Source: Acidovorax delafieldii (GTDB lineage: Bacteria; Pseudomonadota; Gammaproteobacteria; Burkholderiales; Burkholderiaceae_C). From it: a stretch of 64,000 nucleotides of DNA. The translations under genes and the position numbers were made by a program. Below, piece after piece: positions 3,781 through 16,177 of the stretch. How positions within the stretch are numbered: position 1 is the first letter of the stretch; each line of letters begins with the position of its first letter. The notes under the pieces are model-generated. The model saw nothing but the letters and a program-made list of their open reading frames with translations. It was not told the DNA's origin and did no database searches. Location of the stretch: NCBI RefSeq assembly GCF_007993815.1, contig NZ_VJWE01000011.1, positions 930,001 to 994,000 on the forward strand. The letters are read 5' to 3'.

Positions 3781-5845
3781 GGAGCACATTCGCCCGCTGC
3801 GCCGCAAACGCCACATACCAGTCCAGACACCCCGGGTTGGCCATCGCGTCCTTGTTGACCACCTTTTCGATGGGCTGGCCCAGCAGCAGTTTCTTGATGG
3901 GCAGCTCCTGCTTCTTGCCGCTCAGCGTGCGCGGCACCTCGGCCACGGCAAAGATGTCGTCGGGCACAAAGCGTGGGCTCAGGGCCGTGCGCACGGCGCC
4001 GTTGATGCGCGCGCGCAGGCCATCGTCCAGCGCGTAGCCGGGGCGCAGCACCACAAACAGCGGCATGTAGCTCTCGCGGCCCAGGTATTCCAGGTCCACC
4101 ACCAGGCTGTCGAGCACTTCGGGCAGCGATTCGACCGCGCTGTAGATCTCGCTCGTGCCCATGCGCAGACCGTGGCGGTTGATGGTGGCGTCAGAGCGGC
4201 CATAGATCACGCAGCCGCCGTTGGCGCCGATCTTGAGCCAGTCGCCATGCCGCCACACCGCGCCCATGCTCGCGGGGCCGTCGCCACCGCCGGGCTGGCG
4301 GCCGTGGCCTGCGGGGTACATGTCGAAGTAGCTCGAAAGGTAACGCGAACCATCCTTGTCGCCCCACAGGTAGAGCGGCATCGACGGAATCGGCTGCGCG
4401 CAGACCAGTTCGCCCACCGCGTCCTGCACGGGGCGGCCCTCGGCGTCCCAGGACTCCACGGCCGCGCCCAGCATGCGGCATTGCATCTCGCCGGGCACCT
4501 GGGGCATCTCGCGGTTGCCACCGATGAAGGCGCCGCAAAAGTCAGTCCCGCCCGAAATGTTGTTCCACCAGATGTCATGGGTGCCCAAGGCCTCGAACTG
4601 GGCCGTGCCCCATTCCTGCACCTCGGGCGACAGCGGCGATCCGGTGGTGCCCAGCGCGCGGATGCGCCCCAGGTCGCCATGGTCGCTGAGCGCAATGCCC
4701 GCCTTCATGCAGTTGGCAAAGAACGCCGCGCCCGCACCGAAGAAGGTCACGCCCGTCTCGGCCGCAAAGCGCCACAGCACGCCCCAGTCCGGGTGCTCCT
4801 TGCTGCCACCGGGGTTGCCGTCGTAGATCACGCAGGTGGTGCCCGACAGCAGGCCGCTGAGCTGCGCATTCCACATCACCCAGCCGGTGGAGCTGTACCA
4901 GTGGTAGCGCTCGCCAAAGCTGTTGGGCTCGTAGCTGCAGCCGATGTCGTTGTGCAGCACCTTGAGCTGCAGCGCCACCAGCACCGTGCCGCCATGGCCA
5001 TGCACAATGGGCTTGGGCAGGCCGGTGGTGCCGCTGGAGTAGACGATCCACAGGGGGTAGTCAAACGGCAGCCACATCGGCTCGAAGGCAGCCGTTTCTG
5101 CATCGTTTTGGGCGGTAGCGCTAGTCCAGCTTGCCCAGCCAGCTATCGAAACCGAAGCATCCAGATTGCCCAGCAGCACCGCGTGCTGCACGCTGGGCAG
5201 GGCCTCGCGCAGCTCGGCCAGCACGGGGCGGCGGTCGTGGTCACGGCCGCCATAGCTCACTCCGTCCACGCCGATCAGCACCTTGGGCTCGATCTGGCGA
5301 AAGCGGTCGAGCACCGCATGCGTGCCCATGTCCGGCGCGCAGATGCTCCACACGCCGCCGATGCTCACCGTGGCCAGGAAGGCGATCATGGCCTCGGGCA
5401 CGTTGGGCAGGTAGGCCGCAACGCGGTCGCCGGGCAACACGCCCTGGGCCTTGAGGTGCAGCGCCAGCGACGCGACCTGGCGGCGCAGCTCGGGCCAGCT
5501 CAGCTCGCGGTGCTGGCCCTTTTCGTTGCGGCTGATGATGGCGGGCAGGCCCGCCGCGTGGGCGGCATCCACATGCCGCAGCGCCTGGCGTGCGTAATTG
5601 ACCTGGGCGCCAGGAAACCACACCGCGCCGGGCATGGTGTTCTTCGCCAGCACGGCCGTGTGGGGGGTGGGCGACTGCAGGTCAAAGTAGTCCCACACGC
5701 TTTGCCAGAAGGCGTCGAGTTCGGTAGTGGACCAGCGCCACAGCGCGTCGTAGCTGTCGAACTGCAGGCCGCGCTGGTCGCGCAGCCAGTTCTGGTACAG
5801 GCGGATCTGGGGGATGTAAGGCGGGGTTGTGTGTGTTGTCTCCAT
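3773..5845 (-). CDS. acetoacetate--CoA ligase
   Basis: Predicted 690-residue cytoplasmic enzyme that converts acetoacetate, ATP and CoA to acetoacetyl-CoA, linking ketone bodies to PHB or acetyl-CoA metabolism. The order is an N-terminal domain typical of acetyl-CoA-synthetase-like ligases (NYARQALRH ... LPAIISRNEKGQ), the AMP-binding loop YSSGTTGLPKPIVHGHGG from residue 269, WYSSTGWVMWN, and a C-terminal RTLSGKKQELPIKKLL with the catalytic lysine. Start ATG 5845 was preferred over an in-frame start 87 bp upstream, which would read through the divergent promoter. Odd: residues about 232-246 (VSIAGWASWTSATAQ) are encoded by a dispersed repeat read in frame, and a second copy supplies the stop. 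Divergent from a TetR gene with a shared operator. Confidence 0.9.
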   Translation of the reverse strand: METTHTTPPYIPQIRLYQNWLRDQRGLQFDSYDALWRWSTTELDAFWQSVWDYFDLQSPTPHTAVLAKNTMPGAVWFPGAQVNYARQALRHVDAAHAAGLPAIISRNEKGQHRELSWPELRRQVASLALHLKAQGVLPGDRVAAYLPNVPEAMIAFLATVSIGGVWSICAPDMGTHAVLDRFRQIEPKVLIGVDGVSYGGRDHDRRPVLAELREALPSVQHAVLLGNLDASVSIAGWASWTSATAQNDAETAAFEPMWLPFDYPLWIVYSSGTTGLPKPIVHGHGGTVLVALQLKVLHNDIGCSYEPNSFGERYHWYSSTGWVMWNAQLSGLLSGTTCVIYDGNPGGSKEHPDWGVLWRFAAETGVTFFGAGAAFFANCMKAGIALSDHGDLGRIRALGTTGSPLSPEVQEWGTAQFEALGTHDIWWNNISGGTDFCGAFIGGNREMPQVPGEMQCRMLGAAVESWDAEGRPVQDAVGELVCAQPIPSMPLYLWGDKDGSRYLSSYFDMYPAGHGRQPGGGDGPASMGAVWRHGDWLKIGANGGCVIYGRSDATINRHGLRMGTSEIYSAVESLPEVLDSLVVDLEYLGRESYMPLFVVLRPGYALDDGLRARINGAVRTALSPRFVPDDIFAVAEVPRTLSGKKQELPIKKLLLGQPIEKVVNKDAMANPGCLDWYVAFAAQRANVLQK
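5109..5152 (+). repeat. dispersed GCGCTAG/AGCTAT element, copy 2, inside a coding region
   Basis: On the plus strand GGCGGTAGCGCTAG (from 5111) and AGCTATCGAAA (from 5141) match the two conserved blocks of the dispersed element. It lies wholly within the acetoacetate-CoA ligase gene and is translated in frame from the minus strand, in a loop just before the AMP-binding motif. Confidence 0.6.
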
Positions 5846-11864: not shown

Positions 11865-13154
11865 ATGGGATTCATGAACTGGCGTGTGAAAAGCGCTGAT
11901 GTGTTGCAACAAGGCGGCGTGATCGCGCCGGACGAGCGGCTGCCCTGGCCGCAGACGGCTGTGATGGGCGTGCAGCACGTGATTGCAATGTTTGGCGCCA
12001 CGGTGCTGGCGCCCATCCTGATGGGCTTTGACCCGAACGTGGCCATCCTGATGAGCGGCATCGGCACGCTGATCTTCTTCCTCGTCACCGGCGGCAAGGT
12101 GCCCAGCTACCTGGGCTCCAGCTTTGCGTTCATTGGCGTGGTGATTGCGGCCACGGGCTATGCGGGCCAAGGGGCCAATGCCAACATCGGCGTGGCGCTG
12201 GGCGGCATCATTGCGTGTGGCCTCGTCTACACGCTCATCGGCGCGCTGGTGCAGGCGATTGGCACGGGCTGGATCGAGCGCTTCATGCCGCCCGTGGTCA
12301 CGGGCTCGGTGGTGGCGGTGATCGGGCTGAACCTCGCGGGCATTCCCATCAAGAACATGGCGGCCAGCAACTTTGACAGCTGGATGCAGGTGGTGACTTT
12401 TGTGAGCGTGGGCCTGGTGGCCGTGCTCACGCGCGGCATGGTGCAGCGCCTGTTGATCCTGGTCGGGCTGATCGTGGCCAGCATCATCTATGCAGTGCTG
12501 ACCAACGGCCTGGGCCTGGGCAAGCCGATGGACCTGACTGCACTGGCCAACGCTGCGTGGTTTGGCCTGCCGAGCTTTGCGGCCCCGCAGTTCAGCGGCA
12601 ATGCCATGCTGCTGATTGCGCCCGTGGCCATCATCCTGGTGGCCGAGAACCTGGGCCACGTGAAGGCCGTGACGGCCATGACCGGCCAGAACCTGGACCG
12701 CTACATGGGCCGCGCGTTCATTGGTGACGGCATTGCCACCATGGTGAGTGGCAGCGCAGGCGGCACGGGCGTGACCACCTATGCCGAGAACATCGGCGTG
12801 ATGGCGGCGACCAAGATCTATTCCACCGCCGTGTTCCTGCTGGCGGGTGTGTTTGCGCTGGTGCTGGGCTTTTCCCCCAAGTTCGGCGCACTGATCCAGA
12901 CCATTCCGCTGCCGGTGATGGGCGGCGTGTCCATCGTGGTGTTTGGCCTGATCGCGGTGGCGGGCGCCAAGATCTGGGTGGACAACAAGGTGGATTTTTC
13001 GCAGAACAAGAACCTCATCGTGGCGGCCATCACCCTCATCCTGGGCACGGGCGACTTCACACTCAAGTTCGGCCAGTTCGCGCTGGGCGGCATCGGCACC
13101 GCCACGTTCGGGGCGATCCTGCTGTACGCGCTGCTCAACCGCAAAGCGGCGTAA
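11865..13154 (+). CDS. uracil:proton symporter (NCS2/UraA family)
   Basis: Predicted 429-residue inner-membrane nucleobase transporter, the same length as E. coli UraA. Fourteen-helix architecture is implied by near-continuous hydrophobic segments. UraA's substrate and proton residues have clear counterparts: E261 and H265 in VAENLGHVK, and E308 in TTYAENIGVMAATK. The last motif is much closer to uracil permeases than to xanthine permeases. AAGGA at 11852-11856 serves ATG 11865. It is followed by a leader-like region carrying a palindrome and an intrinsic terminator (13246-13283), which would also end this transcript. Uracil is likely, but xanthine or thymine cannot be excluded. Confidence 0.85.
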   Translation: MGFMNWRVKSADVLQQGGVIAPDERLPWPQTAVMGVQHVIAMFGATVLAPILMGFDPNVAILMSGIGTLIFFLVTGGKVPSYLGSSFAFIGVVIAATGYAGQGANANIGVALGGIIACGLVYTLIGALVQAIGTGWIERFMPPVVTGSVVAVIGLNLAGIPIKNMAASNFDSWMQVVTFVSVGLVAVLTRGMVQRLLILVGLIVASIIYAVLTNGLGLGKPMDLTALANAAWFGLPSFAAPQFSGNAMLLIAPVAIILVAENLGHVKAVTAMTGQNLDRYMGRAFIGDGIATMVSGSAGGTGVTTYAENIGVMAATKIYSTAVFLLAGVFALVLGFSPKFGALIQTIPLPVMGGVSIVVFGLIAVAGAKIWVDNKVDFSQNKNLIVAAITLILGTGDFTLKFGQFALGGIGTATFGAILLYALLNRKAA

Positions 13155-13186
13155 TCTGTGGATGTGGCCGGGCTGAACCTCATATG

Positions 13187-13202
13187 TAAGGGTTAACCCT
13201 TA
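13187..13202. promoter_or_regulatory. palindromic operator TAAGGGTTAACCCTTA, copy 1
   Basis: A perfect 16 bp palindrome 95 bp before the CoA-transferase start. Its AGGGTTAACCCT core is repeated before the ABC binding-protein gene (14920-14931). Two identical 12 bp palindromes 1.7 kb apart, before two adjacent genes, indicate a shared DNA-binding regulator. I cannot name it. Confidence 0.65.
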
Positions 13203-13245
13203 ATTTGTAAGGAACGAAGGCTAGCATCCAGGGTTTTGTCCACAG

Positions 13246-13283
13246 GGCCATCCGCTCACCGGGCGGGTGGCCTTTTTCTTTTT
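13246..13283 (+). terminator. intrinsic terminator inside the CoA-transferase leader (possible attenuator)
   Basis: A 10 bp stem (GGCCATCCGC with GCGGGTGGCC, one G-T wobble), a 7 nt loop, then TTTTTCTTTTT. It ends 13 nt before the CoA-transferase ATG, and the Shine-Dalgarno GGAG directly follows the T-run. Any promoter for the downstream gene must therefore lie upstream of this terminator, unless the start is almost leaderless. It would also terminate the uracil permease transcript. Confidence 0.7.
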
Positions 13284-13296
13284 GCGGAGTTTGTTC

Positions 13297-14838
13297 ATGT
13301 CCCTGGCCGATCGGGTGCTGTACCCCGACTTTCTCTCCCGCACCATGACCGCCGACGAGGCGGCCGCCCTGATCCCTGCCGGTGCCCATGTGGGCATGAG
13401 CGGATTCACTGGCGCGGGCTACCCCAAGGCCGTGCCCGGCGCGCTGGCGCGCCGCATCGAGAGCCTGAACGCGCAGGGCCATGGCTTCAAGATCGGGCTG
13501 TGGACAGGCGCCAGCACCGCACCCGAATTGGACGGCGCGCTGGCCCAGGTGGACGGCATCGAGATGCGCCTGCCCTACCAGTCCGACCCCACGGTGCGCC
13601 GCCAGATCAATGCGGGGCAGATGCAGTATGTGGACATCCACCTGTCGCACGTGGCGCAGTTTGTGTGGTTCGGGTTTCTGGGCAAGCTGGATGTGGCGGT
13701 GGTCGAGGTGGCGGGCGTGTTGCCCGACGGGCGTCTGATCCCCTCGTCCTCGGTGGGCAACAACAAGACCTGGCTGGACCAGGCCGACAAGGTCATCCTG
13801 GAAGTGAATGCCTGGCACAACCCGCAGCTGGAGGGCATGCACGACATCTACTACGGCACCGATGTACCGCCGCACCGCAAGCCCATCCCCATGACACGGC
13901 CCGACGAACGCATTGGCGAGCCCTACCTGCGCTGCGACCCGAGCAAGGTGATCGCCGTGGTGATGACCAACCAGCCCGACCGCAACAGCGTGTACGCCGC
14001 GCCCGACGACACCTCCAACCGCATCGCGGGCCACATCATCGAGTTCCTGCAGCACGAGGTGAAAAAGGGCCGCCTGCCCGCAGACCTGCTGCCTCTGCAG
14101 TCGGGCGTGGGCAACATCGCCAACGCAGTGCTGGCAGGGCTGAACAACGGCCCGTTCGACAACCTCACGGCCTACACCGAGGTGCTGCAGGACGGCATGC
14201 TGGACATGCTGCGCTCGGGCAAGCTGGCCAGCGCCTCGGCCACGGCGCTGTCGCTGAGCCCGGCGGCGATGCAGGACTTCAACGACCGCATCGACTACTA
14301 CAAGCAGCGCATCGTGCTGCGCCCGCAGGAGATCAGCAACCACCCCGAGCTGATCCGCCGCATGGGCCTGATCGCGATGAACGGCATGATCGAAGCCGAC
14401 ATCTATGGCAACGTGAACTCCACGCACGTGATGGGCTCGGCCATCATGAATGGCATTGGCGGCTCGGGCGACTTTGCGCGCAATGCCTACCTGTCGATCT
14501 TCATGACGCCGTCGCTGGCCAAGAACGGCAGCATCTCATGCATCGTGCCCATGGCCTCGCATGTGGACCACACCGAGCACGATGTGCAGATCCTCGTCAC
14601 CGAACAAGGCCTGGCCGACCTGCGCGGCCATTCGCCCACGCAGCGCGCCGAGATCATCATCGACCGCTGCGCGCACCCCGACTTCCGCCCCGCCCTGCAC
14701 GACTACGTGGCCCGCGCCAAGCGCAACGCCGTGGGCCAGCACACGCCACACCTGCTGAATGAGGCGCTGTCGTGGCACCAGCGGTATGTGGAAACGGGGA
14801 GCATGCGCCGGCCCGCAGATCCGGTCGGCGCAGCGTAG
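13297..14838 (+). CDS. acetyl-CoA hydrolase/succinyl-CoA:acetate CoA-transferase
   Basis: Predicted 513-residue class I CoA-transferase that moves CoA between acetate and succinate or a similar acid. The family landmarks are GMSGFTGAGYPKAVP near residue 34, QSGVGNIANAVL near 268, and the catalytic glutamate E295 in YTEVLQDG, which aligns with E294 of Acetobacter AarC. GSGDFARNAY near residue 387 is also typical. Length fits SpcC/AarC-type enzymes rather than two-subunit transferases. Expression is probably controlled by the palindrome and attenuator-like hairpin just upstream. Together with the acetoacetate-CoA ligase and the thioesterase downstream it gives the region an acetate/short-chain acyl-CoA character. 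Confidence 0.85.
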   Translation: MSLADRVLYPDFLSRTMTADEAAALIPAGAHVGMSGFTGAGYPKAVPGALARRIESLNAQGHGFKIGLWTGASTAPELDGALAQVDGIEMRLPYQSDPTVRRQINAGQMQYVDIHLSHVAQFVWFGFLGKLDVAVVEVAGVLPDGRLIPSSSVGNNKTWLDQADKVILEVNAWHNPQLEGMHDIYYGTDVPPHRKPIPMTRPDERIGEPYLRCDPSKVIAVVMTNQPDRNSVYAAPDDTSNRIAGHIIEFLQHEVKKGRLPADLLPLQSGVGNIANAVLAGLNNGPFDNLTAYTEVLQDGMLDMLRSGKLASASATALSLSPAAMQDFNDRIDYYKQRIVLRPQEISNHPELIRRMGLIAMNGMIEADIYGNVNSTHVMGSAIMNGIGGSGDFARNAYLSIFMTPSLAKNGSISCIVPMASHVDHTEHDVQILVTEQGLADLRGHSPTQRAEIIIDRCAHPDFRPALHDYVARAKRNAVGQHTPHLLNEALSWHQRYVETGSMRRPADPVGAA

Positions 14839-14919
14839 AGGCGCGGCGCCCGCTTGTCGACAGGGTCCGCAGGGCCATCGGCTTCTGACAGCCAACTGCC
14901 AGCCTGGCCCGGTAAAATC

Positions 14920-14931
14920 AGGGTTAACCCT
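14920..14931. promoter_or_regulatory. palindromic operator AGGGTTAACCCT, copy 2
   Basis: A perfect 12 bp palindrome identical to the core of 13187-13202, located 94 bp before the ABC binding-protein start. A small hairpin AGGTC-TATC-GACCT follows at 14932-14945. Confidence 0.65.
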
Positions 14932-14971
14932 AGGTCTATCGACCTCCCCCTCTGTCTGTCCACATCCCCCT

Positions 14972-15004
14972 CCACCCGCCCCTGTCCGGGGCTGGTGGCT
15001 TTTT
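14972..15004 (+). terminator. intrinsic terminator inside the ABC binding-protein leader (possible attenuator)
   Basis: An 11-position stem (CCACCCGCCCC with GGGGCTGGTGG, one mismatch), a 5 nt loop, then CTTTTT and a second T-run at 15015-15021. It ends 21 nt before ATG 15026. The 3' side GGTGGC-TTTTT...TGCG-AG matches the leader at 13246, and both are preceded by TGTCCACA (13237 and 14957). Confidence 0.65.
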
Positions 15005-15025
15005 GTCTGCGAGATTTTTTTGACC

Positions 15026-16177
15026 ATGCAACGCCGTCAGTTCACCCAATCCCTTGTGGCCGCCAGCACCGGCCTGCTGTTTGCCACCGCGTCGCGCGCC
15101 GTGGGCGTGCAGGACCCCATGGACGCGAAGAGCGTGACCATTGGCTGCTCGCTGGGAACGACTGGTGCGCTGGCCAGCCTGGGCAAGGAACTCAAGCAGG
15201 GGCTGGATGCAGGCTTTGCCCAGGCCAACGCCAAGGGCATCCACGGCCGCGAAATCAAGCTGCTGGCGCTGGACGACGGCTACGACGCTGCCCGCTCCGA
15301 AGACAACGTGCGCAAGCTGATTGCCGATGCCAACGTGGTGTCGCTGATCTCCTGCATGGGCACGGCCAACAACCAGCGCATCCTGCCGCTGGTGGACGAG
15401 GCGCAGATCCCCTACGTGGCCCCGCAAAGCGGCGCCACATCGCTGCGCAAGGCCGAGTACCGCTCGGTGTTCCACGTGCGTGCCAGCTACGCCGACGAGG
15501 CCCAGCGCCTGACCCAAAAGCTGGTGTCCATGGGCATCACCGAGCTGGCCGTCGTGTACCAGGACACCGCCTTTGGCCGCGAGTTTCTGGCCGATGTGAC
15601 CAAGGCCATGGCCGCCGCCAAGCAGCCCGCACCCAAAGCCTTCAAGCTCGACGCCCAGGGCGCCCAGGTGGCGGATGTGGTGGGCAAGGCCGTGGCTGCC
15701 AAGCCCAACGCCGTGCTGCTGGGCACGGCGGGCGACATCACCGCCACGCTGGTCAATGAGTTCAAAAAGGTCTCGCCCAGCACGCCGCTGGCCGCCACCA
15801 GCGTGGCGCTGTCGGGCGACAACCTGCGCCAGCTCGGTGGCAAGGCCTCGGGCATTGCGCTGTCGCTGGTGCTGCCCGACGCGGCCCGCACCAGCTTTGC
15901 CGTGGTGCGCGACTACCAGAAGGCCATGCGCGCACTGGGCTACCAGGAGTTCTCGGCCCGCAGCTTTGAAGGCTATGTGAACGCCCGCGTGCTGGCCGAG
16001 GGCCTGGAGCGCGCCGGCCGCGACCTGACCCGCGCCAAGCTGCGCAACGCCCTCGCAGGCATCCGCAGCAACGACCTGGGTGGCCTGTCCATCGACTACG
16101 CCAGCGGCGCGCCGTATGTGGGCTCGCGTTTTCTGGACCTGGGGGTGATGGGCGCCAACGGAAAGTTTGTGGGCTGA
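15026..16177 (+). CDS. ABC transporter substrate-binding protein (branched-chain amino acid/urea type)
   Basis: Predicted 383-residue periplasmic protein of the type I (Leu/Ile/Val, Peripla_BP_6) binding-protein fold. The signal peptide is MQRRQFTQSLVAASTGLLF with cleavage probably near SRA-VG. The mature protein opens with VTIGCSLGTTGALASLGKEL, the typical first strand and ligand-contact loop, followed by IKLLALDDGYDA and YVAPQSGATSL. No ABC permease or ATPase genes are adjacent, so it is an orphan that may use a distant transporter or act as a sensor partner. Its leader matches that of the preceding CoA-transferase, so both are likely co-regulated and the ligand may be a related organic acid. 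The start is ATG 15026. Confidence 0.85.
   Translation: MQRRQFTQSLVAASTGLLFATASRAVGVQDPMDAKSVTIGCSLGTTGALASLGKELKQGLDAGFAQANAKGIHGREIKLLALDDGYDAARSEDNVRKLIADANVVSLISCMGTANNQRILPLVDEAQIPYVAPQSGATSLRKAEYRSVFHVRASYADEAQRLTQKLVSMGITELAVVYQDTAFGREFLADVTKAMAAAKQPAPKAFKLDAQGAQVADVVGKAVAAKPNAVLLGTAGDITATLVNEFKKVSPSTPLAATSVALSGDNLRQLGGKASGIALSLVLPDAARTSFAVVRDYQKAMRALGYQEFSARSFEGYVNARVLAEGLERAGRDLTRAKLRNALAGIRSNDLGGLSIDYASGAPYVGSRFLDLGVMGANGKFVG

Follow-up and report, generated by a model that had tools for sequence, protein, structure and literature searches.

In classical transcription attenuators and terminator riboswitches, an intrinsic terminator lies between the promoter and the start codon, and at class II promoters an activator that touches RNA polymerase needs a fixed spacing, without a -35 element. 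In acetate metabolism, scpC is a target of the CrbS/R (MxtR/ErdR) regulon in Pseudomonas putida, and in P. fluorescens the ACTU motif before acs forms an inverted repeat spanning -52 to -36, the place of an activator (PMC5715377, PMC9927547). Two further sources describe 82 short 5' untranslated regions (UTRs) with a terminator in Burkholderia cenocepacia, arising from processing or attenuation (PMC5688073), and small RNAs (sRNAs) of the RF02278 type that pair by C/U-rich stretches with ribosome-binding sites (PMC5688073, PMC11722255). Our literature search returned no paper combining Acidovorax, transcription start site, small RNA and terminator. Here we analysed a 64,000-nt stretch of Acidovorax delafieldii (contig NZ_VJWE01000011.1, positions 930,001 to 994,000; "the window"), in which scpC, encoding a succinyl-CoA:acetate CoA-transferase, and the next gene, encoding an ATP-binding cassette (ABC) substrate-binding protein (SBP), each follow a leader with a palindrome and a terminator-like hairpin. 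A preliminary description of this locus had proposed that one DNA-binding protein and a conditional terminator co-regulate both genes.

We propose that each gene has its own promoter with a 12–16 bp operator, that an intrinsic terminator before each start codon acts as an attenuator without a switch, and that operator position sets the two genes in opposite directions, a reading to which we give an even chance. Its sequence-supported part comprises the operator, the -10 positions, the hairpins, the T-runs, their conservation and the covariation in the SBP leader. Under this proposal, a regulator bound at about -39 would activate scpC as a class II activator does, while the same regulator bound over +1 would repress the SBP gene. 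RNA polymerase from either promoter would read through the hairpin, with a fraction of transcripts stopping there (at ~50 nt for scpC and ~80 nt for SBP), and the hairpin would be a fixed attenuator and not a riboswitch or antiterminator device. The scpC hairpin would double as the 3' terminator of the upstream permease gene, and the SBP hairpin would belong to the SBP leader itself. The features of the locus are as follows.

13187 to 13202, no strand: perfect 16-bp palindrome TAAGGGTTAACCCTTA, centred at about -39 and probably the operator of scpC; core 13189 to 13200, fixed spacing to the -10
13222 to 13227, plus strand: probable -10 hexamer TAGCAT of scpC, a TANNNT 27 nt past the palindrome centre; -35 not recognisable
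13237 to 13244, plus strand: TGTCCACA in the scpC leader, most likely a chance resemblance
13245 to 13283, plus strand: terminator-like hairpin (13245 to 13273, -23.9 kcal/mol) and T-run (13273 to 13283) of the scpC leader, about +12 to +50 from the predicted start point
13286 to 13289, plus strand: Shine-Dalgarno GGAG of scpC, invariant across 15 aligned leaders
13297 to 14838, plus strand: scpC, succinyl-CoA:acetate CoA-transferase (NF053853, 777.3 bits, cut-off 500; TIGR03458, 816.3 bits; Pfam PF02550 and PF13336)
14913 to 14918, plus strand: probable -10 hexamer TAAAAT of the SBP gene, a TANNNT 13 nt before the palindrome centre
14920 to 14931, no strand: palindrome AGGGTTAACCCT across the predicted SBP start point (about -5 to +7), from sequence reading and the spacing in relatives
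14932 to 14945, plus strand: small 5' hairpin AGGTC-TATC-GACCT near the 5' end of the SBP leader RNA, which is predicted to start at about 14925; 2 of 4 modelled pairs changed on both sides, 89.6% of cells paired
14946 to 14971, plus strand: C/U-rich linker holding TGTCCACA at 14957 to 14964; across 629 linker bases, C makes up 44%, T 24%, A 18% and G 15%
14972 to 15004, plus strand: terminator-like hairpin (14972 to 14998, -19.4 kcal/mol) and T-run (15000 to 15004) of the SBP leader, about +48 to +80
15026 to 16177, plus strand: SBP gene, Leu/Ile/Val-type ABC substrate-binding protein (Peripla_BP_6; PF13458, 169.1 bits)

Direct reading of the palindromes, the TGTCCACA copies, the hairpins, the T-runs and the two ATGs (13297 and 15026) agreed with the preliminary description, as did its distances of 13 nt and 21 nt from T-run to ATG. 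In both leaders a GC-rich hairpin is followed directly by a T-run, as expected of an intrinsic terminator. The description had also reported the same order of elements before both genes; the parts are indeed all present, but the palindrome lies upstream of the -10 at 13189 and downstream of it at 14920. Its observations are partly confirmed, being sound except for a TGTCCAC box discussed below. Other in-frame starts are available for scpC (GTG 13267, TTG 13282 and TTG 13291), and ATG 13297 is preferred because GGAG precedes it. By its CoA-transferase, the closest named relative in the scan is A. benzenivorans (98% identity).

The palindrome is rare in the genome and kept in relatives. AGGGTTAACCCT occurs exactly at four sites in the 5.02-Mb genome, two of them in these leaders, and the reversed control at none. 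Counted within the window alone, it stands out less: with up to two mismatches allowed there are two palindromes (both exact) where 0.60 would be expected, a number equalled in 12 of 100 shuffles. The palindrome is retained before scpC in several Burkholderiales genera, with GGGWWWWCCC in 53 leaders of a set of 109 (103 distinct) made up of 79 of 80 loci and 30 further ones (L067, with almost no upstream DNA, was left out); because of the relatedness among the leaders, these are not independent counts. The 14-base form TAGGGTWWACCCTA is present in 7 of 47 genomes of the genus. In a full-text literature search with forms of the palindrome string, none of the papers listed looks to concern this operator, and one deals with bacterial REP palindromes.

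Further palindromes of the same kind were seen elsewhere. In several Acidovorax genomes (L008 at G000 C1:909733, L102, L103, L109), one occupies the gap between a LysR-type gene and a small divergent gene, in some of them near a PEPCK-like frame, and this locus may also belong to the regulon. At three other sites (L101, L107, L108), a membrane-protein-like frame follows the palindrome. Across the genome and genus, the palindrome neighbours, named from reading their translations (a Bug-type receptor, a LacI-type gene, a LysR gene and a membrane protein), do not name the regulator.

The position of the palindrome relative to the -10 differs between the two genes. For scpC, 38 of the 53 palindrome-bearing leaders have a TANNNT that begins exactly 27 nt past the centre of the palindrome and the other 15 do not, and the loci with a -10 at +26 to +28 include those titled Acidovorax, Polaromonas, Hydrogenophaga, Rhodoferax, Curvibacter and Comamonas. 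For SBP, 26 of 29 distinct leaders have a TANNNT whose first base lies 13 nt ahead of the centre. A promoter scan of positions 12900 to 15100 found no -35/-10 pair. Because the spacing to the -10 is fixed and no clear -35 is present, we read the scpC operator, at about -39 in the place of a -35, as having activator geometry; measured from the predicted start point, it shows what is expected of a class II site (an operator near -41, fixed -10 spacing and no -35). The SBP operator has repressor geometry because the palindrome covers +1. One DNA-binding protein probably acts at both sites, as previously suggested. The likely -10 elements also lie upstream of the hairpins, where the promoters had been expected, so transcripts would have to cross the terminator-like hairpins. 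Co-regulation of the two genes becomes doubtful with the operator in an activator position at scpC and a repressor position at SBP, and we judge opposite regulation from these positions to be as likely as co-regulation.

The SBP gene is present in 32 of 47 genomes of the genus (E 1e-150), of which 30 loci with 29 distinct leaders were analysed, and a hairpin with T-run was found in 28 of the 30 leaders under a T-run criterion that had been loosened after a stricter screen (25 of 30). In an alignment of 24 leaders, 6 of 13 pairs were changed on both sides, and 95.8% of cells were paired, compared with 91.7% in shuffles, where 0 of 500 reached the observed value; sliding the partner lowered pairing to 57.6% or less. 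We conclude that the hairpin is kept by compensatory change. The stems of L154 and L155 are almost wholly different, yet shape and T-run are kept. The window stem itself carries a single mismatch, CCACCC.. in place of the CCACCA.. seen in most relatives, and is weaker, at -19.4 kcal/mol against about -24 kcal/mol in the closest relatives; a simple scan missed this hairpin. In one relative (L133), the SBP start region reads CCCTG where others read CCATG, and the start may be CTG or elsewhere.

A covariance model built from the SBP leaders gave 26 matches at E <1e-6 in the 47 genomes, each at an SBP gene: 24 are sequences used to build the model, another duplicates a building sequence exactly, and the last (G029) is an additional leader. 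Three other matches had E values of 0.02–0.09. As judged from these matches, the element is single-copy, tied to SBP and fading in distant members. The second-best match outside SBP (L111:494-593, 22.1 bits) has a strong hairpin with TTTTCTTTTT just before the ATG frame of an ABC-permease-like gene. A separate strong hairpin with T-run (L122:16566-16591) lies 37 nt before the ATG of an amino-acid-binding-protein-like gene (start 16628), with TATAAT ~130 nt before that ATG.

In a 464-kb sample, leader hairpins of this strength were not a general habit of the genome. The 101-nt leaders fold better than their shuffles (z -2.47, 6 of 200 as good, and z -2.69, 1 of 200). A strict screen of this sample (366 called genes) found 10 hairpins with T-runs within 60 nt before a same-strand start; five are separated from any upstream gene by more than 70 nt, and the scpC and SBP leaders account for two of those five. 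This screen led us to reject strong leader hairpins as a whole-genome habit. With looser settings, 41 of 318 leaders in a sample of the genome, both window leaders included, had a hairpin with T-run, many of them loose structures, against the 28 of 30 SBP leaders.

One competing account is that both hairpins are only 3' terminators of the upstream genes, the permease and scpC, and that the next promoter happens to precede them. The permease gene concerned is co-directional.

11865 to 13154, plus strand: NCS2-type uracil/xanthine permease (RutG-like), upstream neighbour of scpC (NCBIfam ncs2, 360.8 bits, cut-off 291.8; start from the gene caller)

Against the NCBIfam RutG model it scores 698.3 bits, below the cut-off of 758.65. 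For scpC, a hairpin with T-run was found at 18 of 22 loci with the permease directly upstream, compared with 0 of 6 with a divergent neighbour (L168, L173, L175, L178, L179, L182), an association with a Fisher p of 0.0006 from by-eye counts with relatedness ignored; the remaining two loci (L183, L184) had none. The by-eye count of 18 includes L187 and omits L180, while the script also arrives at 18 by counting L180 (spurious) and missing L187. Terminator-like hairpins between a stop codon and a close next start also occur elsewhere in the genome (L120, L121). Where the permease lacks scpC as direct neighbour, this account fares less well, with a compact hairpin at L193 and a loose one at +303 at L190, but none at L191 and L192. 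Outside Acidovorax, a co-directional neighbour without a hairpin was seen at L042, L044, L056 and L085, and a terminator-like hairpin farther upstream of scpC at L028 and L077.

At SBP, the ownership test goes the other way. The hairpin lies within 320 nt behind scpC at 23 of 25 loci of SBP genomes, compared with 0 of 5 examined where SBP was not found (L176, L178, L179, L181, L189; G003, G012, G024 and G041 were not covered). Hairpin and T-run are also kept at three loci where scpC was not found (1e-150): L148 and L150, with a divergent upstream gene, and L149, with the permease upstream. Because of these counts and the three retained hairpins, we assign the SBP hairpin to SBP, and we consider it rather unlikely that both hairpins are nothing but terminators of the genes before them. 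The scpC hairpin probably is a permease terminator inside the scpC leader, to judge from its distribution, and would also end permease transcripts; since it is absent in the six examined genomes with a divergent neighbour, it is not needed for scpC control. Its stems are changed in relatives. Only 15 of 27 distinct leader regions entered the scpC alignment, and because the consensus fold was poor, this hairpin is argued from position and per-sequence folds.

The layout could also serve a purpose other than termination. Known stabilising leaders such as that of ompA have a hairpin, a U-rich stretch, a Shine-Dalgarno and an ATG in that order. Both window leaders fit this layout, and the hairpins could be mRNA 5' stabilisers, with the U-runs as sites for ribosomal protein S1, a translation enhancer, and no termination at all. 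By eye, no Shine-Dalgarno is recognisable in the SBP leaders of L135, L136, L138, L144 and L151, as would suit such a use of S1. However, the T-run starts ~0–3 nt from the GC-rich stem in most SBP leaders, which termination requires and stabilisation does not, and we regard pure stabilisation as unlikely.

The conditional switch of the preliminary description, in which TGTCCAC would pair with GTGG as antiterminator, fared worst. TGTCCAC is present in both window leaders, which had suggested a shared box, but across the distinct leaders it occurs in only 2 of 29 for SBP and 8 of 29 for scpC, and the resemblance does not go beyond chance. Four further places in the genome carry TGTCCACA with GGTGGC comparably far behind it, versus one for a control pattern. 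When the left arm of the stem was blocked, the best fold weakened from -25.7 to -17.2 kcal/mol for SBP and from -26.0 to -7.7 kcal/mol for scpC. TGTCCAC-GTGG antitermination was rejected on this poor conservation and the weaker alternative folds. RNAalifold predicted only the two hairpins in the SBP leaders, and no ATG frame for a leader peptide precedes either terminator, only GTG and TTG frames. Nothing in the window scores at or above the gathering threshold of an Rfam family, and between 13150 and 15060 all matches at E <=10 lie far under their cut-offs (E 1.9–8.7), so a known riboswitch or leader family was rejected. Taken together, a conditional attenuator or riboswitch with this box is very improbable. 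A single RNA element common to both leaders was likewise rejected: the SBP model scores the scpC leader at 18.2 bits, fourth among nine matches in 464 kb (E 0.23). The two leaders are similar in layout.

A last possibility is that the SBP leader ends as a stable sRNA with two hairpins and a C/U-rich stretch that acts on other mRNAs, like RF02278, a toxic sRNA family whose origin reportedly goes back to Kimelman et al. 2012. The SBP leader has the small hairpin, the C/U-rich linker, the terminator hairpin and the U-run, and CCTCC occurs in 15 of 29 leaders. Relatives of RF02278 were moreover found in the scpC leaders of Dechloromonas and related genomes, at 8 of 10 loci tested (E <=1), three of which are labelled only Proteobacteria within this group; one exceeds the gathering score of 50 bits. 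Their positions and scores are as follows.

L057:2260-2325: RF02278 relative in the scpC 5' leader, 51.8 bits
L047:3880-3945: the same, 47.8 bits
L054 and L058, both 3883-3948: the same, 44.0 bits each
L081:3892-3956: the same, 33.5 bits
L074:3838-3905: the same, 31.6 bits
L100:3878-3944: the same, 29.3 bits
L083:3829-3894: the same, 25.0 bits

The scpC leaders of L087 and L094 gave no RF02278 match at E <=1. scpC starts ~45–105 nt past the RF02278-like RNA, and the upstream gene is divergent in L057, L058, L083 and L100. In L054, an additional pairing of CTCCAGAC with GTCTGGAG could enclose both hairpins. In Acidovorax itself, 46 of 47 genomes carry RF02278 over the cut-off. Against an sRNA at the SBP leader, the four matches of this genome, one of them over the cut-off, all lie outside the window, no RF02278 match was found at 13150 to 15060 even at E <=10, and CCTCC was not found in 14 of 29 leaders, including L139, where the script cut the linker short. 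A separate sRNA from the SBP leader is thus distinctly unlikely. We see as improbable a combination of this idea with our proposal, in which one regulator would flip both genes in opposite directions, the repressed promoter would give a constitutively terminated, C/U-rich leader RNA with two hairpins, acting in trans as RF02278 sRNAs do, and a rarer read-through SBP mRNA, and the equivalent in Dechloromonas and relatives would come from the scpC leader.

Several observations weigh against the proposal of a single operator in two geometries with switchless leader terminators. Without a release mechanism, a terminator at +12 would be wasteful of transcripts. The regulator may also be a repressor at both sites. 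At some loci, such as L080 and L097, the palindrome lies downstream of a possible scpC -10. In most relatives a -35 is not evident by eye at SBP, and the promoter there is read from its -10. Two of the 25 SBP leaders matched in the stricter screen had the wrong hairpin; by eye, L158 has a loose stem, the T-runs read TTCTTG in L145 and L146 and TTTCTG in L143, and L156 and L159 have no hairpin with T-run. In the alignment, further pair types do not exceed shuffles (10 vs 10.5), and the five of 29 distinct leaders excluded as too different or too long (L143, L153, L157, L158, L159) favour by their exclusion the structure found. The covariance model misses 6 of the 32 SBP genomes, and L148 to L150 may be recent losses of scpC. 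What remains is a picture that appears ordinary in its parts, one operator in two geometries together with a conserved leader terminator. Of the interpretation first offered for this locus, the operator, the upstream -10s and the conservation of the SBP hairpin find support, the conditional switch finds none, and co-regulation is doubtful.

Should the proposal hold, the gene pair would offer a compact natural experiment in which the place of an operator decides between activation and repression. The operator AGGGTWWACCCT, placed before an acetate-handling enzyme in several Burkholderiales genera, would mark a regulon, and the SBP leader would be a conserved terminator without a visible switch, raising the question of why the gene keeps one. 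The RF02278 relatives inside the scpC leaders of the Dechloromonas group would link that sRNA family to acetate metabolism. As an observation at related loci, a second binding protein, ~48–51% identical, is found in several genomes (L022:6884-8035, L023:6900-8051, L024:5534-6685, L027:8130-9281, minus strand), convergent to SBP or, in L024, to scpC.

The ACTU examples of CrbS/R in PMC5715377, such as TACTACCATCGTCGAAT, have by eye a different core from AGGGTWWACCCT, and no acetyl-CoA synthetase gene was recognised on reading the neighbours of the four exact palindrome sites in the genome. Classical attenuators and riboswitches share the terminator between promoter and start codon, while the scpC and SBP leaders yielded neither an antiterminator that is conserved nor an ATG-started leader peptide nor an aptamer of a known kind. 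The short 5' UTRs of B. cenocepacia were established by RNA-seq coverage, whereas the Acidovorax leaders are known from sequence alone; common to both is a promoter-proximal terminator within the leader that produces, or here would produce, a short transcript. The window leaders fail the RF02278 model, order their parts differently and are 5' leaders with their own operator. Even so, the Betaproteobacteria toxic sRNA (Burkholderia ncS03/05/27/62, with Bordetella S17 similar) resembles them in its two hairpins, its C/U-rich unpaired stretch and its intrinsic terminator (PMC5688073, PMC4603805, PMC11722255).

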